Shown: positions 56,002 to 62,251 of the stretch, piece by piece
Position numbering within the stretch: the stretch's first letter is position 1
Layout: each line of letters opens with the position of its first letter
From: Acidobacteriota bacterium
GTDB taxonomy: Bacteria; Acidobacteriota; Vicinamibacteria; Vicinamibacterales; CAVVIG01
Assembly: GCA_003222395.1 (NCBI GenBank)
Contig: QHWB01000031.1
Coordinates: 188,501 to 252,500 of the forward strand
DNA length: 64,000 bases
Direction of reading: 5' to 3'
Notes under the pieces: model-generated
What the model was told of the DNA's origin: nothing
Database searches by the model: none
Seen by the model: only the letters and a program-made list of their open reading frames with translations
Translations under genes and position numbers: made by a program

Positions 56002-57714
56002 TCACCGAAATTCCGGCGGCGGGACACGTTTCTTCGTCGCCTGCTCGAACGCGTAGGCGATCGACAGCAGCTTCGGTTCGCTGCAGGCCAGTCCGCTGAA
56101 GCTGACGCCCATCGGGCCTGGCTTCGCGTTGAACCCCGACGGAAATGGCGGCGTCGGTTCGTTCGCGACGAGCGCGAACGGCACGATGACGGTCGGATAG
56201 CCAGGCTTCGCCGCGATCGCGGCGCCGCTCGCACCCGGAAAGAACATCGCGTCGAGGCGCTCGGCTTTCATCACGGCGTCGATGCCAGTGGTGGCCGACA
56301 GGCGAAGGTCTTTCGCGCGATCGGCTTCGTACCGCGCGCGATCGCCATCGACGTCCATTTCGTCGGAGATGTCGAGCTGCGACTGGCCGTACTTGATCGC
56401 GCCGGCCTTCTCGTGCGCCTTGTTGAACTCGCGCAGCTCGGCGAGCGATTTCAGCGGCGCGGCGGCGCCGAGCGACGCGAGCCATTTGTTGAAGTCGCGC
56501 TTCATGCCGTACTTGAGCACGACCGAACAATCCTGATCCTTGCCCTTCACGTTGGTCACGCCGGAGCAGGTGGTCCAGCGGACGAAGTTGTTCGTCGGAT
56601 CCTTCTCGGCGATGCTCGGGATGTTCGCCGGATCGACGACGATCGCGCCTTCCTGTGTGAGCACCGCGATCGCGTCCTCCATCGCTTTCTTCTGCGCGGC
56701 AGTCAGCCCACCGCGATTGCCCTCCGGCATCGCGTCGAGGCGATCGAAATAGAACGCGCGCGGGACGCCGATGCGCGCTCCCTTCAGCCCGTCGCGCTTC
56801 AGGTACACGGTGTAGTCGCGGTTCGGCGCCGGCGTGCACTTCGTCGTCGCCGGATCGTTTGGATCGGGCGTGGCGCTCTCCATCGCGCCGAACATGATCG
56901 CGACGTCGGTCACGCTCTTGGCCATCGGACCGGCCGTGTCCTGATCCGCGGTGATCGGAATCACGCCGTAGCGGCTGATGCGTCCGACGGTCGGCTTGAC
57001 GGCCGCGAGCATGTTCTGGTTCGAGGGGCTCAGGATCGATCCGGACGTCTCGGTGCCGACGTTGCCGGCCCAGAAGTTCGCCGCCGTGCCGACGCCGGAG
57101 CTCGATCCGCCGGTGCCGAGCGCGGGGCGTCCGTCGAAGGTCGCCTCGCGCGGGTCTTTTCTTGGATCGTACGGGTTGTAGCCCTGGCCGCCGACGGCGT
57201 TGTAGTTGCCCGGCATCGGCGTCGGCGCGCCGGCCACCCAGTTGGCGAGCTCGGTCATGCCGCTCTTCGCGATGATGATCGCGCCGGCGTCGACGAGGTT
57301 CTTCGTCAGCGTCGCGTCGTACGGCGGCACCAGGTTCTCGAACGCGAGCGCCCCGCCGGTCGTGCGCATGAACGTCGTGTGCACGTTGTCCTTCAACGCG
57401 ATCGGAATGCCGTGCAGCGGACCGCGGATTCGTCCCTGCTGGCGCTCGCGATCGCGCTCGTCGGCGAGCGCGATCGCATTCGGATTCACCGTGATCGCCG
57501 CGTGAAGGCGATCTTCGTACATGCCGATGCGCGTCAGGTACTGCTCGACGATCTGCCGCGACGTCGCGCGCTTCTGGTCGAGCGCGGCGCGCATGTCGGC
57601 AATCGTCGCCTCGACGACCGTGAACGGCTTGCGTCCGTTCTGCGCGCGGATGGTGAGCGCGGCGGCCGCGACGGCCAGCCCGAGGAGTATCGAGAGGCGT
57701 TTCATGGCGGTCAT
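56002..57714 (-). CDS. Secreted amidase-signature family protein
   Basis: A 570-residue amidase with an N-terminal signal (MKRLSILLGLAVAAAALTIRAQ, preceded by MTA). The Ser-cisSer-Lys triad is visible: K108 in ALKDN, the cis-Ser in LGTGGSSSGVG (about 204-206), and the nucleophile in TETSGSI (about 224). It hydrolyses an amide, perhaps peptide- or aryl-amides, outside the cytosol. ATG 57714 overlaps the stop of the M28 remnant upstream (ATGA), the relic of a coupled operon. At 570 residues it is longer than cytosolic GatA-like enzymes but usual for the exported group. Confidence 0.92.
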   Translation of the reverse strand: MTAMKRLSILLGLAVAAAALTIRAQNGRKPFTVVEATIADMRAALDQKRATSRQIVEQYLTRIGMYEDRLHAAITVNPNAIALADERDRERQQGRIRGPLHGIPIALKDNVHTTFMRTTGGALAFENLVPPYDATLTKNLVDAGAIIIAKSGMTELANWVAGAPTPMPGNYNAVGGQGYNPYDPRKDPREATFDGRPALGTGGSSSGVGTAANFWAGNVGTETSGSILSPSNQNMLAAVKPTVGRISRYGVIPITADQDTAGPMAKSVTDVAIMFGAMESATPDPNDPATTKCTPAPNRDYTVYLKRDGLKGARIGVPRAFYFDRLDAMPEGNRGGLTAAQKKAMEDAIAVLTQEGAIVVDPANIPSIAEKDPTNNFVRWTTCSGVTNVKGKDQDCSVVLKYGMKRDFNKWLASLGAAAPLKSLAELREFNKAHEKAGAIKYGQSQLDISDEMDVDGDRARYEADRAKDLRLSATTGIDAVMKAERLDAMFFPGASGAAIAAKPGYPTVIVPFALVANEPTPPFPSGFNAKPGPMGVSFSGLACSEPKLLSIAYAFEQATKKRVPPPEFR

Positions 57715-57946
57715 GATAATTGGTTCGCAACCGCGAGCGCGAGATCGGCGGCGCCCTTCGCAAACCGCGACACGGCGCCGACGTTCACCGCATCCGGCCG
57801 GCGGTCGCGGGGATTGTGGAACCACTCGTTCGCGCCGATCAACGAAATGAACCGCCCGCCTTCGCGGCCGACTGTCGCCGCTGACCTCCGTTTGGCGACG
57901 GACGCGAAGCCGCCGTCTTCAGCAGACCGCGTCGGGTCATGCGCAT
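57711..57946 (-). pseudogene. M28-type peptidase remnant (internal deletion)
   Basis: From ATG 57946 the frame reads MRMTRRGLLKTAA, a twin-arginine signal, and then becomes nonsense. After a frame change, GRFISLIGANEWFHNPRDRRPDAVNVGAVSRFAKGAADLALAVANQLS ends at TGA 57713. The second part resembles the C-terminus of secreted M28 aminopeptidases (NEWFH-P-D). The catalytic core is gone, leaving about 80 codons from a gene that should have over 400. Its stop still overlaps the amidase ATG. Confidence 0.65.
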
Positions 57947-57955
57947 GCGGACAAC

Positions 57956-58114
57956 CTACTGCCGTTCGGCGACGACTGCAACGTCGCCCGGCAGCAGACG
58001 ATACGAGCCGTACGAGCGGCGCATCGAGAACGCGAACCCGGCGGCGCTCAGCGCCCGGCCGATCTCGTCGCGGCTGAAAATGCGCACGCGATGCACTTCG
58101 TGCTCAAAAGTCAT
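57956..58114 (-). pseudogene. C-terminal remnant of a class I methyltransferase
   Basis: A 52-codon frame from ATG 58114: MTFEHEVHRVRIFSRDEIGRAL..AAGFAFSMRRSYGSYRLLPGDVAVVAERQ. This has the look of the last 50 residues of a SAM-dependent methyltransferase (R-I-F/Y-S-x-x-E-I-x-x-x-L-x-x-A-G-F). The upstream part is missing: the 3' end of the 732-residue protein gene overlaps its first codons, so the boundary is a rearrangement junction. It may not be expressed. Confidence 0.6.
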
Positions 58115-60302
58115 TCGAGCTGAGCACGGTCGTCGTCTTCCCGACGGTGAACGACAGCGTGCGCGTGACGCCGGGCAGATACACCGACTTCCTCGCGAGG
58201 TCGAGGAGCAGCACGCCGAGCGCGCGCACCTGGTGCGACTGGTCGGACATCCGGCTCATGTGCTGAAACGATTTCTCGATGACGCCGCGCTCGTCGGTCG
58301 GGCTCGCCAGCGCGTCGGCAAGGTTCTTCGCGCCGCGCAGGCAGTCGGCGATGTCGGGGCGCGTGTCGTCGTTCTTCTCGGCGAGGCCGGCGGCGGTCAG
58401 ACGATCGTCGACGGCCGCGAACCCGGCTCTTTCCAGCCGCGCGGTCGCCGGCGCGTCGCCGCGCAAATGATCGTACGCAAACTGCGCGACGCCGGTGGCG
58501 CCCACCGCAGAGTTCTGCAGATAGTGCTGCCACACCGGAAAGTACAGCTGGCGCCGCCGCGCGACGCTGGCGATCGTACCGCCCACGCTGCGGTTCCACT
58601 CGACGGCCGCGGCGAGCGCCGGCGCGAAATCGACGGCCGACAGCGCCGCAAGTCGCGCCCACAGATCCTTCTTCAACGCTTCGTCGTTGATCGTCATCTG
58701 CGCCGCCCACGACACGTCTTTCGTCCCGATGCTCGGGAACTTCGCCTTCAGCGCGTCGGCCTGCCCTTCGCGGCACACGCCCCACAGCACCGCCATGTCG
58801 GCGCAGTAGTCGGATTGATGCTCGTCGAAGACCTTCGGCTGCTCTGACGACAGCAAGTGCAAACCGTACGCGAAGCTCGAAGCCGTGACCGGTGCGCCCG
58901 GCGGCACGAACGCCGGCGTCTCCGCCTTCAGGCTCATGCTCCAGTTGCGCCGCGTCATGTCGTACGCGTGGAGGACCGCGTAGCTGCGCGACGTGCCCGG
59001 CGTTCCTTCGCGGATGGATCGCGTCGTCCGGTTCGTATCTTTGCTGAACACCTTCCTGTCACCGATGCCGAGCGTGAAGCCCCACGCGCGCGTGCGTGTG
59101 ACGGTCGTCTCGTTCAGGTACTTCTCGATGCCGACGCCGTTCGGCGCGGCGAGCACGGGCGCGAGGTTCCGGCGGACGAGCGGCGCGTGCATCGCCGCCA
59201 GCGCCTCGTCCGTCAGCGTCGCCTGCAGCAGCGTCGCATTTTCTTCGATGCGGCCGTACTCGAATGCGAAGCCGCTGTCGATTTTCGCTTTCACCGCGCC
59301 GGCGATCTTGTCGGCGACGGAGGCCTCGAGCGTGTCGATCGCTTTCGACAGGGCCGCGGGCGTGAGGTTGCGGACCCCGAGGCGTTCGGCGACGTCCTGA
59401 ATCGACTGCTGCTCGGCCGGCGTCAGCGCGCTCGTCGCGCGCGCGAGCAGCGGCCTGACCTTCGAGAGCTCCGCGTCGAGCAGGCCGCTCACCGCCGCCG
59501 CGACGACTTCCGGCTGGGCGGCCTGGACCGTGGCCGTGACGCCGACGGTCGCACGGGCGTCGCTGATCTTCGCCTTGCGGACGAAGACTCGATACGCCGC
59601 TCCATCGTCGTCGCGCGTGAAGGTGAGCGCGAACTCGTCGTTCACCGATATCGATGCCGTTGCCTTCACGCCGGCGTCGATTCGAATGCCAATCGACGCC
59701 GGCGCGCGCAGCAGGCGCGCGAGGCTGCCGATTTCGCTCGTGAACACGTCGGCCCACGACACTTCGATGCTCGCCTGCAGCGTGCCCGCCGAGCGGACGG
59801 CGAGCGCATCGCCAGGCTGCAGCGCTCTGACGCTGTCGACCAGCGCGATCAGCCGCGGACGCTCGATATCGCGCGGGATTGCGAGAGCGACCGGCTCGTC
59901 GACGTCGTGGCGGCGGTAGTCGCACAGGCGCACCTGTTCCGCCGCCTGGATCTGACCGGCGGCGGAGCCGGCGTCGAGATTGGCAGTGGCGCGCGCCATT
60001 GCCTGAACGGAGTACTTGAGCCACGCAGACCCGCCCGCGAACCGGATCGGCGCCTCGTCGCTGCCGATGACGCCGTCGGCGTCTTTCTGGCCGGCGGCGT
60101 TGAAGCCGTCGATGCGCGACGTCGCGCCGGCGTCGATCTCGAGCGCGAGCGGCACCCCCTGGCCGAGCGAAATCGGCGCCGCGACCGCGGCCGATGCGAG
60201 ATCGAGGCCGATTCGCACGTCGTTCAGTTTCGCGCGCGGCCCCGGCACCTGCGCCACGATGTCTTCCCACTTGACGATCGTCGTCGTGATTTCAGCGGCC
60301 AT
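58104..60302 (-). CDS. Large soluble protein of unknown function, 732 residues
   Basis: I do not recognise a family. The product has no signal peptide and no transmembrane segment. The N-terminal third (1-240) reads as beta-rich (DVRIGLDLASAAVAAPISLGQGVPLALEIDAGATSRIDGF; SAGTLQASIEVSWADVF). The middle (about 250-360) is helical with a regular coiled-coil-like stretch (ERLGVRNLTPAALSKAIDTLEASVADKIAGAVKAKIDSGFAFEYG). The C-terminal part (about 360-732) is mixed, with YLNETTVTRTRAWGFTLGIGDRKVFSKD and YDMTRRNWSMSLKAETPAF. It begins 109 bp after a three-TM membrane protein on the same strand. The pair may form a membrane-tethered complex. The stop overlaps a methyltransferase remnant. Confidence 0.85.
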   Translation of the reverse strand: MAAEITTTIVKWEDIVAQVPGPRAKLNDVRIGLDLASAAVAAPISLGQGVPLALEIDAGATSRIDGFNAAGQKDADGVIGSDEAPIRFAGGSAWLKYSVQAMARATANLDAGSAAGQIQAAEQVRLCDYRRHDVDEPVALAIPRDIERPRLIALVDSVRALQPGDALAVRSAGTLQASIEVSWADVFTSEIGSLARLLRAPASIGIRIDAGVKATASISVNDEFALTFTRDDDGAAYRVFVRKAKISDARATVGVTATVQAAQPEVVAAAVSGLLDAELSKVRPLLARATSALTPAEQQSIQDVAERLGVRNLTPAALSKAIDTLEASVADKIAGAVKAKIDSGFAFEYGRIEENATLLQATLTDEALAAMHAPLVRRNLAPVLAAPNGVGIEKYLNETTVTRTRAWGFTLGIGDRKVFSKDTNRTTRSIREGTPGTSRSYAVLHAYDMTRRNWSMSLKAETPAFVPPGAPVTASSFAYGLHLLSSEQPKVFDEHQSDYCADMAVLWGVCREGQADALKAKFPSIGTKDVSWAAQMTINDEALKKDLWARLAALSAVDFAPALAAAVEWNRSVGGTIASVARRRQLYFPVWQHYLQNSAVGATGVAQFAYDHLRGDAPATARLERAGFAAVDDRLTAAGLAEKNDDTRPDIADCLRGAKNLADALASPTDERGVIEKSFQHMSRMSDQSHQVRALGVLLLDLARKSVYLPGVTRTLSFTVGKTTTVLSSNDF

Positions 60303-60411
60303 ATCGCTTTCTCCTCGGAGTCGGTGGAATTACTGAGAGCAGATCCTTGTCCCAGTCGCGGCCGCGCATTCAAGGTTTTCGTGTGTGTCGTGGTCTCGGG
60401 CGTTTCGTGGT

Positions 60412-61497
60412 CTACACGCGCGTTGCCGCGGACGGACCGGCCGCCGGCGCCGGTGCCGCAGATTGCTTTTCCTGATCGATTGCCGATGCCACCGTCGTCT
60501 TCAGAGAGGTCAGTCCTTTGAGCGCGTGGAACCAGAAAGGCGATCCCAGACTGAGCAGCGCCGCGCCGATCAGGATGCCGACGATTCCGGCGCCCCAGCC
60601 CGTCGCGCCGAAGCGGCGGACGTGCTCCGGCCACGTCGGCACGTCGAGCTGAAACTGCGCGACCGCGAGCTTCGACCGCAGCTCGCGCGCCTCGGTCGAG
60701 AGATCGTCGATCGTCCGCGTCTGCTTGTTCGAGAGATCCTGTTCGGCCTGCGTCTGAACCGCGCCGGCCATGCTCACCAGCGAATCGCGCACGCTCTTGT
60801 CGGCGGCGACCTTGTTGTACAAGTCGATCGCGTCGAAGTGCATCAGGATTGCGACGGCGACGGCGATGCCCGCGGTCCAGACGCGGACGTTCAGCGTGAA
60901 CCGCTGCGAGACGCGGTTCATCGCCGCGTCGAACCATTCGTCGATTCGCGCGTCGACGCCGCTGATGCTGCTGACGGCGCTGTCGATCGACGACTGCAGC
61001 CGCGCCGCCGCGGCCGGCGTGAGCCCCTTCTTCAGCTCGTCGAGCGTGACGCGCGCGCGACCGAGCAGCCTGTCGGGATCTTTTCCCAGCGCGGTCGCAA
61101 GCGCCGCATGCCACGGTTCGCTGCTGTTCGCGCCGGCCGCGACGAGCTCGCGCAATATGGCCTTGAGCTCGTTCGGGCGGACCGCGCTTGCGCACCGCCA
61201 ATGGCCTGCGAGCGCCGGCATCCGCTTCTCGACCCAATCCTTCGCCTTGAAGGGACTCTGCTGCGAAAACGCCGAATCGGACAAGAGCGGATGCGTCACG
61301 ACTCTTGCGACGATCGCGTCGGCGTGCGCCTCGAGGCCCGGATCGGCGGTCTTCAGCAGCGTCACGAGCCCGGCGCGCAGATGCGAACCGCGAAGGTTCA
61401 GCAAGGAGCTGATCATCTGCGTCAGAATCGTGACGAACAGACTGACTCCGAGCAGCACGACGACGATAGCGATGGCGACGTCGAGTTGTTGCAGCAT
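60412..61497 (-). CDS. Three-TM membrane protein of unknown function
   Basis: A 361-residue protein: TM1 at about 7-30 (DVAIAIVVVLLGVSLFVTILTQMI) followed by SSLLNLRGSHLRAGLVTLL. A soluble helical region of about 175 residues comes next, then TM2 near 222-240 (VWTAGIAVAVAILMHFD), a charged helical segment (LSNKQTRTIDDLSTEARELRSKLAVAQ), TM3 at about 310-330 (GWGAGIVGILIGAALLSLGSPFWFHALKGL) and a short Ala/Pro-rich tail. Proteins with this N-terminal TM-RG-x-x-L-x-x-G and C-terminal LSLGxPFWF pattern occur as uncharacterised proteins in several phyla, to my recollection. Good SD (GGAGG) before ATG 61497. It is probably co-transcribed with the 732-residue gene. Confidence 0.85.
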   Translation of the reverse strand: MLQQLDVAIAIVVVLLGVSLFVTILTQMISSLLNLRGSHLRAGLVTLLKTADPGLEAHADAIVARVVTHPLLSDSAFSQQSPFKAKDWVEKRMPALAGHWRCASAVRPNELKAILRELVAAGANSSEPWHAALATALGKDPDRLLGRARVTLDELKKGLTPAAAARLQSSIDSAVSSISGVDARIDEWFDAAMNRVSQRFTLNVRVWTAGIAVAVAILMHFDAIDLYNKVAADKSVRDSLVSMAGAVQTQAEQDLSNKQTRTIDDLSTEARELRSKLAVAQFQLDVPTWPEHVRRFGATGWGAGIVGILIGAALLSLGSPFWFHALKGLTSLKTTVASAIDQEKQSAAPAPAAGPSAATRV

Positions 61498-61618: not shown

Positions 61619-62251
61619 TTACAGAAGCGCGATCCACGCTGCAGTCGCCGCGGCTTTCTCATCGGCGCGCCACGGGCTGCCCAGTGTCTTTCCGAACGCC
61701 GACAGGGCGCGCGTGATCCGGCCGTCCGGCTGCTTCAACGCGGCCGCCGCACGCGTCGCGAGCTGCTTCTCGACGATGACGTCGCACTTCACGCCTCGCG
61801 CGGCCAGCGCCTCCTCGAGCACCGTACGGAACAGACGCCCTTCATACGCGTGCGCGCGGATGTGCGGGTTGCCGATTGTCTCCGGATCGATGACGCTGCC
61901 CACCACCAGCGCGGCGCGAAGGGTCTCGTGGGATCGCTCGGCTGAAGCCGCGCTGCACGTCTGAAGCAGCGCCGCGACCGACGCCTTCGCGCAGCGCTCG
62001 ATGATCGTCGACCGGCGCGCGATTTCGCGGCGATCCTGCATCTCGACGCCGAGGCCGTCGTGATGCGGCTGGCGCGTTTCAGGAACGTCGGGATCGCTGA
62101 GCGCGACGATGTGGCGCGCCACCGGCTTCGGATCGGACGCGGGACCGCCGAGCACGACGGCGATCGCGTAGCCGGATTTCACGCGCAGACCGATCGCTCG
62201 GCTAACGCCTTCGCGCGCCGTCCGAGCCGAGCCGTCGCGCTCCATTGTCAT
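61619..62251 (-). CDS. Hypothetical protein, 210 residues
   Basis: Unrecognised family. The N-terminal segment AIGLRVKSGYAIAVVLGGP resembles the first strand-turn-strand of an RNase-H-like fold, followed by LSDPDVPETRQPHHDG. The C-terminal half is helical (EERLFRTVLEEAL-like; EGRLFRTVLEEALAARGVKCDVIVEKQLATRAAAAL). ATG 62251 overlaps the stop of the upstream PEP mutase-family gene (ATGA), so it is co-translated with it. No signal peptide or TM. Followed by a 121-bp gap in which nothing is recognised. Confidence 0.78.
   Translation of the reverse strand: MTMERDGSARTAREGVSRAIGLRVKSGYAIAVVLGGPASDPKPVARHIVALSDPDVPETRQPHHDGLGVEMQDRREIARRSTIIERCAKASVAALLQTCSAASAERSHETLRAALVVGSVIDPETIGNPHIRAHAYEGRLFRTVLEEALAARGVKCDVIVEKQLATRAAAALKQPDGRITRALSAFGKTLGSPWRADEKAAATAAWIALL

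Follow-up and report, generated by a model that had tools for sequence, protein, structure and literature searches.

The window, i.e. the whole stretch of 64,000 nucleotides that was analysed, belongs to an acidobacterial genome of 7.7 Mb in 118 contigs and carries on its minus strand the genes M and B, in this order. M (60412-61497) codes for a 361-aa membrane protein with three transmembrane segments (TMs), as seen in the ORF, the TM scan, the alignment and the model, and is followed after 109 bp by B (58104-60302), coding for a 732-aa soluble beta-rich protein with helical parts (ORF, alignment and model). Both genes start with ATG and are preceded on the same strand by a Shine-Dalgarno sequence, GGAGG (61507-61503) for M and GAGGAG (60316-60311) for B. 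ORFs and the GGAGG motif confirmed the original prediction of two genes at these coordinates, in one orientation and with a strong ribosome site on M. The GC3 values of M (0.854) and B (0.885) match those of other genes, as 40 long ones in the window gave 0.853 +/- 0.039. Homologues elsewhere presented roughly 20-37 % identity in the M and B frames. As the frames keep this identity in other genomes, M and B are real genes, and on the same ground the long antisense ORFs are by-products of the high GC content. Neighbours of the pair were a PEP mutase, a 208-aa gene, an amidase-signature enzyme and an esterase. No enzyme of the CHAT, caspase or TIR class was present in the window operon, no defence-island genes flanked the pair, and neither an NTPase switch nor an endolysin-like neighbour was seen beside it.

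A related genome (G010) has an empty site: the flanking genes are in the same order with 58-88 % identity, and a 72-aa gene replaces M and B. The empty site shows that the pair is a lineage-specific insertion, and it supports the variable, rearrangement-prone site that had been suspected. Two minus-strand genes outside the module, both with an order kept in G010, form the borders of the insertion: the 208-aa gene on the outer side (61619-62245) and the amidase-signature gene (56002-57714, Pfam Amidase) on the other. The 208-aa protein next to the PEP mutase is conserved, has no Pfam match and is kept in several genomes of the family. Between the amidase-signature gene and B, gene remnants had been proposed at 57711-58114. 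A 52-aa ORF (57956-58114, minus strand) may be the C-terminal remnant of a methyltransferase, judged by its position and a weak similarity to the end of the methyltransferase in L170; the local score of 38 was not significant against shuffled sequences (28 +/- 5, maximum 49), and Pfam found nothing in this ORF. Possible remnants of the start and end of a second gene lie at 57711-57950 on the minus strand, where the start TRRGLLKTAA is like VTRRELFGMAAAATLA at the same place in L170 and the frame is broken. Behind the 208-aa gene, G009 has small genes, a methyltransferase and a gene with a twin-arginine-like start; these resemble the remnants beside M and B, with a sequence similarity that is not significant by itself. 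Remnants are plausible with weak support, at a score within the range of the shuffles and without a Pfam match.

M was assigned to a family defined here by an N-terminal TM, a WFDxxMDRVS motif before TM2 and SLGAPFW in TM3. The window protein has WFDxxMNRVSQRFT ahead of TM2 and SLGSPFWF within TM3, and its membership was seen in an alignment of 37 members and in reciprocal profile hits. The TM scan confirmed the three predicted TMs (approximately 7-25, 203-221 and 305-323), and the scaffold-like layout that had been described fits the all-helical model (pLDDT 86). Neither the sequence nor the profile of 37 M proteins had a significant match in Pfam, NCBIfam or the PDB sequences. PADLOC profiles gave only coiled-coil-like matches (E 0.008-0.0095) and no significant match to a defence system, and in the comparison of the model with the PDB Foldseek returned nothing at E <= 0.001 and VIA a Z of at most 4.7. 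Positive charges follow TM1 and TM3.

For B, a superfamily was defined by full-length similarity to the compact B or by homology to the N-terminal half of a large B of ~1000 aa. The window protein belongs to it. Compact B shares a homologous region of ~245 residues with large B (hhalign 96.9 %, E 1.9e-10), and several proteins were hit by the profiles of both. The TM scan found no TMs in B, as predicted. In the model (mean pLDDT 80), strands at 36-260 and helices at 264-342 are followed by a second block of strands (346-491) and further helices (494-704), so that a beta-rich N-terminus with a coiled-coil-like middle was a fair, though incomplete, description. The strands are long and antiparallel, many with one hydrophobic and one polar face. 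B had no significant match in Pfam, NCBIfam, PADLOC or the PDB sequences, and a profile of seven B proteins none in Pfam, NCBIfam or the PDB sequences. Against the PDB, Foldseek returned nothing at E <= 0.001, and TM-scores were ~0.2. The lipid-binding sheet of ApoB came closest, with a weak fold resemblance (Z 13.5, rmsd 5.8 over 217 residues), followed by outer-membrane barrels (VIA Z ~10), the superposition being poor in both cases. The long antiparallel strands recall weakly the ApoB/vitellogenin sheets and these barrels; unlike them, B lacks an export signal, and it had no Foldseek hit at the above threshold. For M as for B, a missing fold match is not equivalent to a new fold; B was modelled as a whole chain. 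In sum, neither product falls into a Pfam or NCBIfam family, and the structural searches gave no confident match to a housekeeping pair, a possibility rejected also because the profiles of seven B and 37 M proteins found nothing in Pfam, NCBIfam and the PDB sequences.

M and B are patchy, undescribed families. Among 396 genomes of the phylum, M was present in 28, compact B in nine and large B in 16; M occurred also in Methylococcales, Sphingomonadales, Verrucomicrobia, Cyanobacteria and Chloroflexi. For all DNA other than the window, genes were called with a simple script. M and the B superfamily were found together in ten genomes versus 1.7 expected (p 6e-7) and, after removal of the query genomes, in five versus 1.1 (p 0.003), both values being uncontrolled for genome size and relatedness. 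Outside the window, M is immediately preceded by a large B in four lineages (G283, G128, L111, G019), and a remnant of a large B lies beside M in a fifth (G003). In L118, a B homologue is located three genes from M on the opposite strand, with a patatin-TPR-S gene beyond it. The predicted neighbourhood of the two families was thus found again in other genomes, but with the larger B as partner: compact B adjoins M only in the window, and in G029 the B and M homologues are ~1.6 Mb apart. Most M genes and many B genes occur without the other, and most other M genes of the phylum are solitary among ordinary neighbours. A cargo of phages or plasmids was rejected, as B had no match in phages or plasmids and M none in plasmids, with a single M relative in the viral contigs of IMG/VR.

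In the relatives, the neighbouring enzymes have lipids (patatin, alpha/beta-hydrolase), peptidoglycan (Amidase_2, GH19) or proteins (CHAT, caspase, clostripain, papain) as their targets, or are of the TIR class. M was accompanied by Amidase_2-type genes in 13 loci, by patatins that are often fused to TPR-S, by a CHAT protein in G004, and in G029 by an amidase-caspase fusion and a divergent TIR gene. TPR-S (PF20308) with a patatin or an alpha/beta-hydrolase was located directly beside M in several loci of Methylococcales and Acidobacteria. Around B, we observed two CHAT proteins, an astacin and a papain-family protease in G273, CHAT with hydrolases in G114, CHAT with a clostripain in G193, patatins in G107 and G254, and a GH19 gene in G029. 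Within two genes of M or B (257 genes), there were 13 amidases, eight patatins, six TPR-S and three CHAT genes, compared to 0, 3, 2 and 1 among 674 genes farther off. For CHAT the difference was not significant (p 0.07), and the enrichment p-values are generous, since the patatin, CHAT and TPR-S profiles were built from nearby genes. The 13 amidases were in part confirmed by Pfam, the rest by a profile built from those amidases.

Next to the amidases, M has a peculiar end. A C-terminal GExG tail was present in 13 of 13 M genes that precede an amidase, in contrast to one of 41 others (Fisher p 1e-11, overstated because related loci are not independent). The 13 loci span Acidobacteria, Methylococcales and Dankookia (L016, L067, L068, L081, L095, L096, L099, L104, L110, L111, L112, L114, L120), and in nearly all of them the amidase starts 7-17 nt past the tailed M. 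The tail is a candidate docking peptide. Its origin as a by-product of the ribosome site of the amidase was rejected, as this site lies past the stop codon and the tail codons vary. The sole exception, L097, has a tail and no amidase: M is followed by MLKQ, the first amidase residues of its relatives, and then by unrelated sequence. A missed amidase gene was rejected, since the translation gave only these first codons before the unrelated sequence. It looks as if the amidase had been lost by recombination, or as if the contig were chimeric. At L097:3917-3975, MLKQ runs into CFVVQGYGKKT, which is similar to the second gene past M in L094. In the window, M lacks both the tail and a downstream amidase and stands outside this amidase-linked subgroup.

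From the recurrence of the two families together and from their enzyme neighbours we infer a function in biological conflicts: M and B may form the non-enzymatic core of an envelope-directed self-killing module, a reading to which we assign a probability of about 0.4. M would be an inner-membrane protein whose large middle domain and C-terminal tail face the cytosol, a topology proposed on the basis of the positive charges after TM1 and TM3, and would gather the enzymes of the module at the membrane. The GExG tail would serve as a docking site for amidases that lack an apparent signal peptide. B, as a beta-sheet protein of the cytosol, would bind to M or to lipid and would either keep the enzymes in check or, after a trigger has been sensed, act on the membrane. 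The window pair, inserted without an enzyme, might use partners encoded at a distance, act alone at the membrane or be a relic. The absence of an effector neighbour is the main weakness of this reading for the window; the window M is also tail-less, most M genes of the phylum are solitary, and compact B adjoins M in the window only. Of the undescribed system proposed originally, the undescribed families and the side-by-side homologues were recovered, while the case for a system is entirely one of gene neighbourhood.

A bolder version, to which we give distinctly less credence, sees M as a membrane platform of a new class, whose cytosolic domain and tail recruit killing enzymes that can replace one another (lipase, amidase, caspase-like protease, TIR), and B as a large beta-sheet partner of a new kind, which would gate these enzymes or insert into membranes; together they would be a modular self-destruction apparatus of several phyla. 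If the proposed core is right, two families without Pfam or NCBIfam entry would be what links killing enzymes, so far known separately, to the membrane in soil Acidobacteria as well as in methanotrophs. The correlation of tail and amidase offers a sharp and cheap handle on a possible interaction of M with the amidase.

Caspase, TIR and related effectors have been described in bacterial conflict and programmed-cell-death systems (Kaur et al. 2020, PMC7159879; 2021, PMC8195603). The relatives of M and B are likewise patchy, with several alternative enzymes (CHAT, caspase, TIR, lipases, proteases) encoded beside conserved non-enzymatic proteins. M and B are not among the named parts of those systems as far as tested, and the two texts do not mention patatin, amidase, TPR-S or CHAT domains. 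TPR-S with patatin or alpha/beta-hydrolase occurs beside M in relatives and is absent beside the window pair; the TPR-S literature searched does not describe M or B with TPR-S, and a search on combinations of TPR-S, patatin and CHAT, covering few subscription papers, found nothing relevant. Bacterial gasdermins share with the B relatives a soluble, beta-rich protein beside caspase-like proteases, but B is far larger and has another order of elements; it had no PADLOC match, and gasdermins were not listed among the PDB fold matches, an absence that leaves room for such a fold.

The strongest competitor, though considerably less probable than the self-killing core, is a complex for envelope maintenance, in which M anchors lipid- and peptidoglycan-remodelling enzymes and B binds or carries lipid, for membrane turnover or stress repair and not for self-killing. 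Housekeeping also makes use of patatin, alpha/beta-hydrolase and amidase activities, the best, weak fold resemblance of B is to a lipid-binding sheet, and the many solitary M genes are expected of a general membrane protein. The patchy distribution and the insertion at a variable site argue against such a role, as do the neighbours CHAT, caspase, TIR and TPR-S, all typical components of conflict systems. For the window itself, decay is improbable: an inserted module that lost enzyme and tail would agree with the probable gene remnants alongside, with the missing tail, amidase and effector, and with the decayed large B beside M in G003, but neither ORF is broken, the ribosome sites are good, codon usage is window-like, and the family motifs are preserved. 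A lysis cassette, with M as a holin-like lesion through which the signal-less amidase reaches the wall, among other uses for a release of contractile particles, appears rather remote. As in holin-endolysin cassettes, M relatives precede an N-acetylmuramoyl-L-alanine amidase without apparent signal, directly so in 13 loci; in L095, M is the last gene of an operon that contains Baseplate_J and DUF6519 genes, and it adjoins similar genes in L126 and is divergent from a tail-sheath gene in L074. However, the size and large soluble, cytosolic domain of M are atypical of a holin and its tail is family-specific, the window M and many others lack an amidase, contractile-particle genes were found at three loci only, and M is almost absent from viral contigs. 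That two unrelated genes became neighbours by chance in the window would agree with the G029 homologues 1.6 Mb apart and the single case of compact B adjoining M, but is very unlikely given that four other lineages have a B-superfamily gene next to M and a fifth has a remnant there.

Further genes recurred or stood out near the two families. The contractile-particle-type genes by M (Baseplate_J, DUF6519, tail sheath) are located at L095:2876-11074, L126:2763-11245 and L074:6173-10039, and in two of these three loci the M homologue ends a same-strand run. Similar, secreted-looking proteins are encoded directly after M in two distant genomes (L088:6465-7400, L074:10036-10986). An unnamed helical family (KLWDFEKLQWKRYTDLL; L011:7350-8654, L015:8129-9424, L016:3477-4349) without Pfam match is encoded upstream of B in G029 and close to M in G003; G004 has a partial relative in the vicinity of M. 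At L157:38-5013, the genes after a B-superfamily member code for a 111-aa membrane-like protein and an endonuclease/exonuclease/phosphatase-family protein, possibly another effector pairing.
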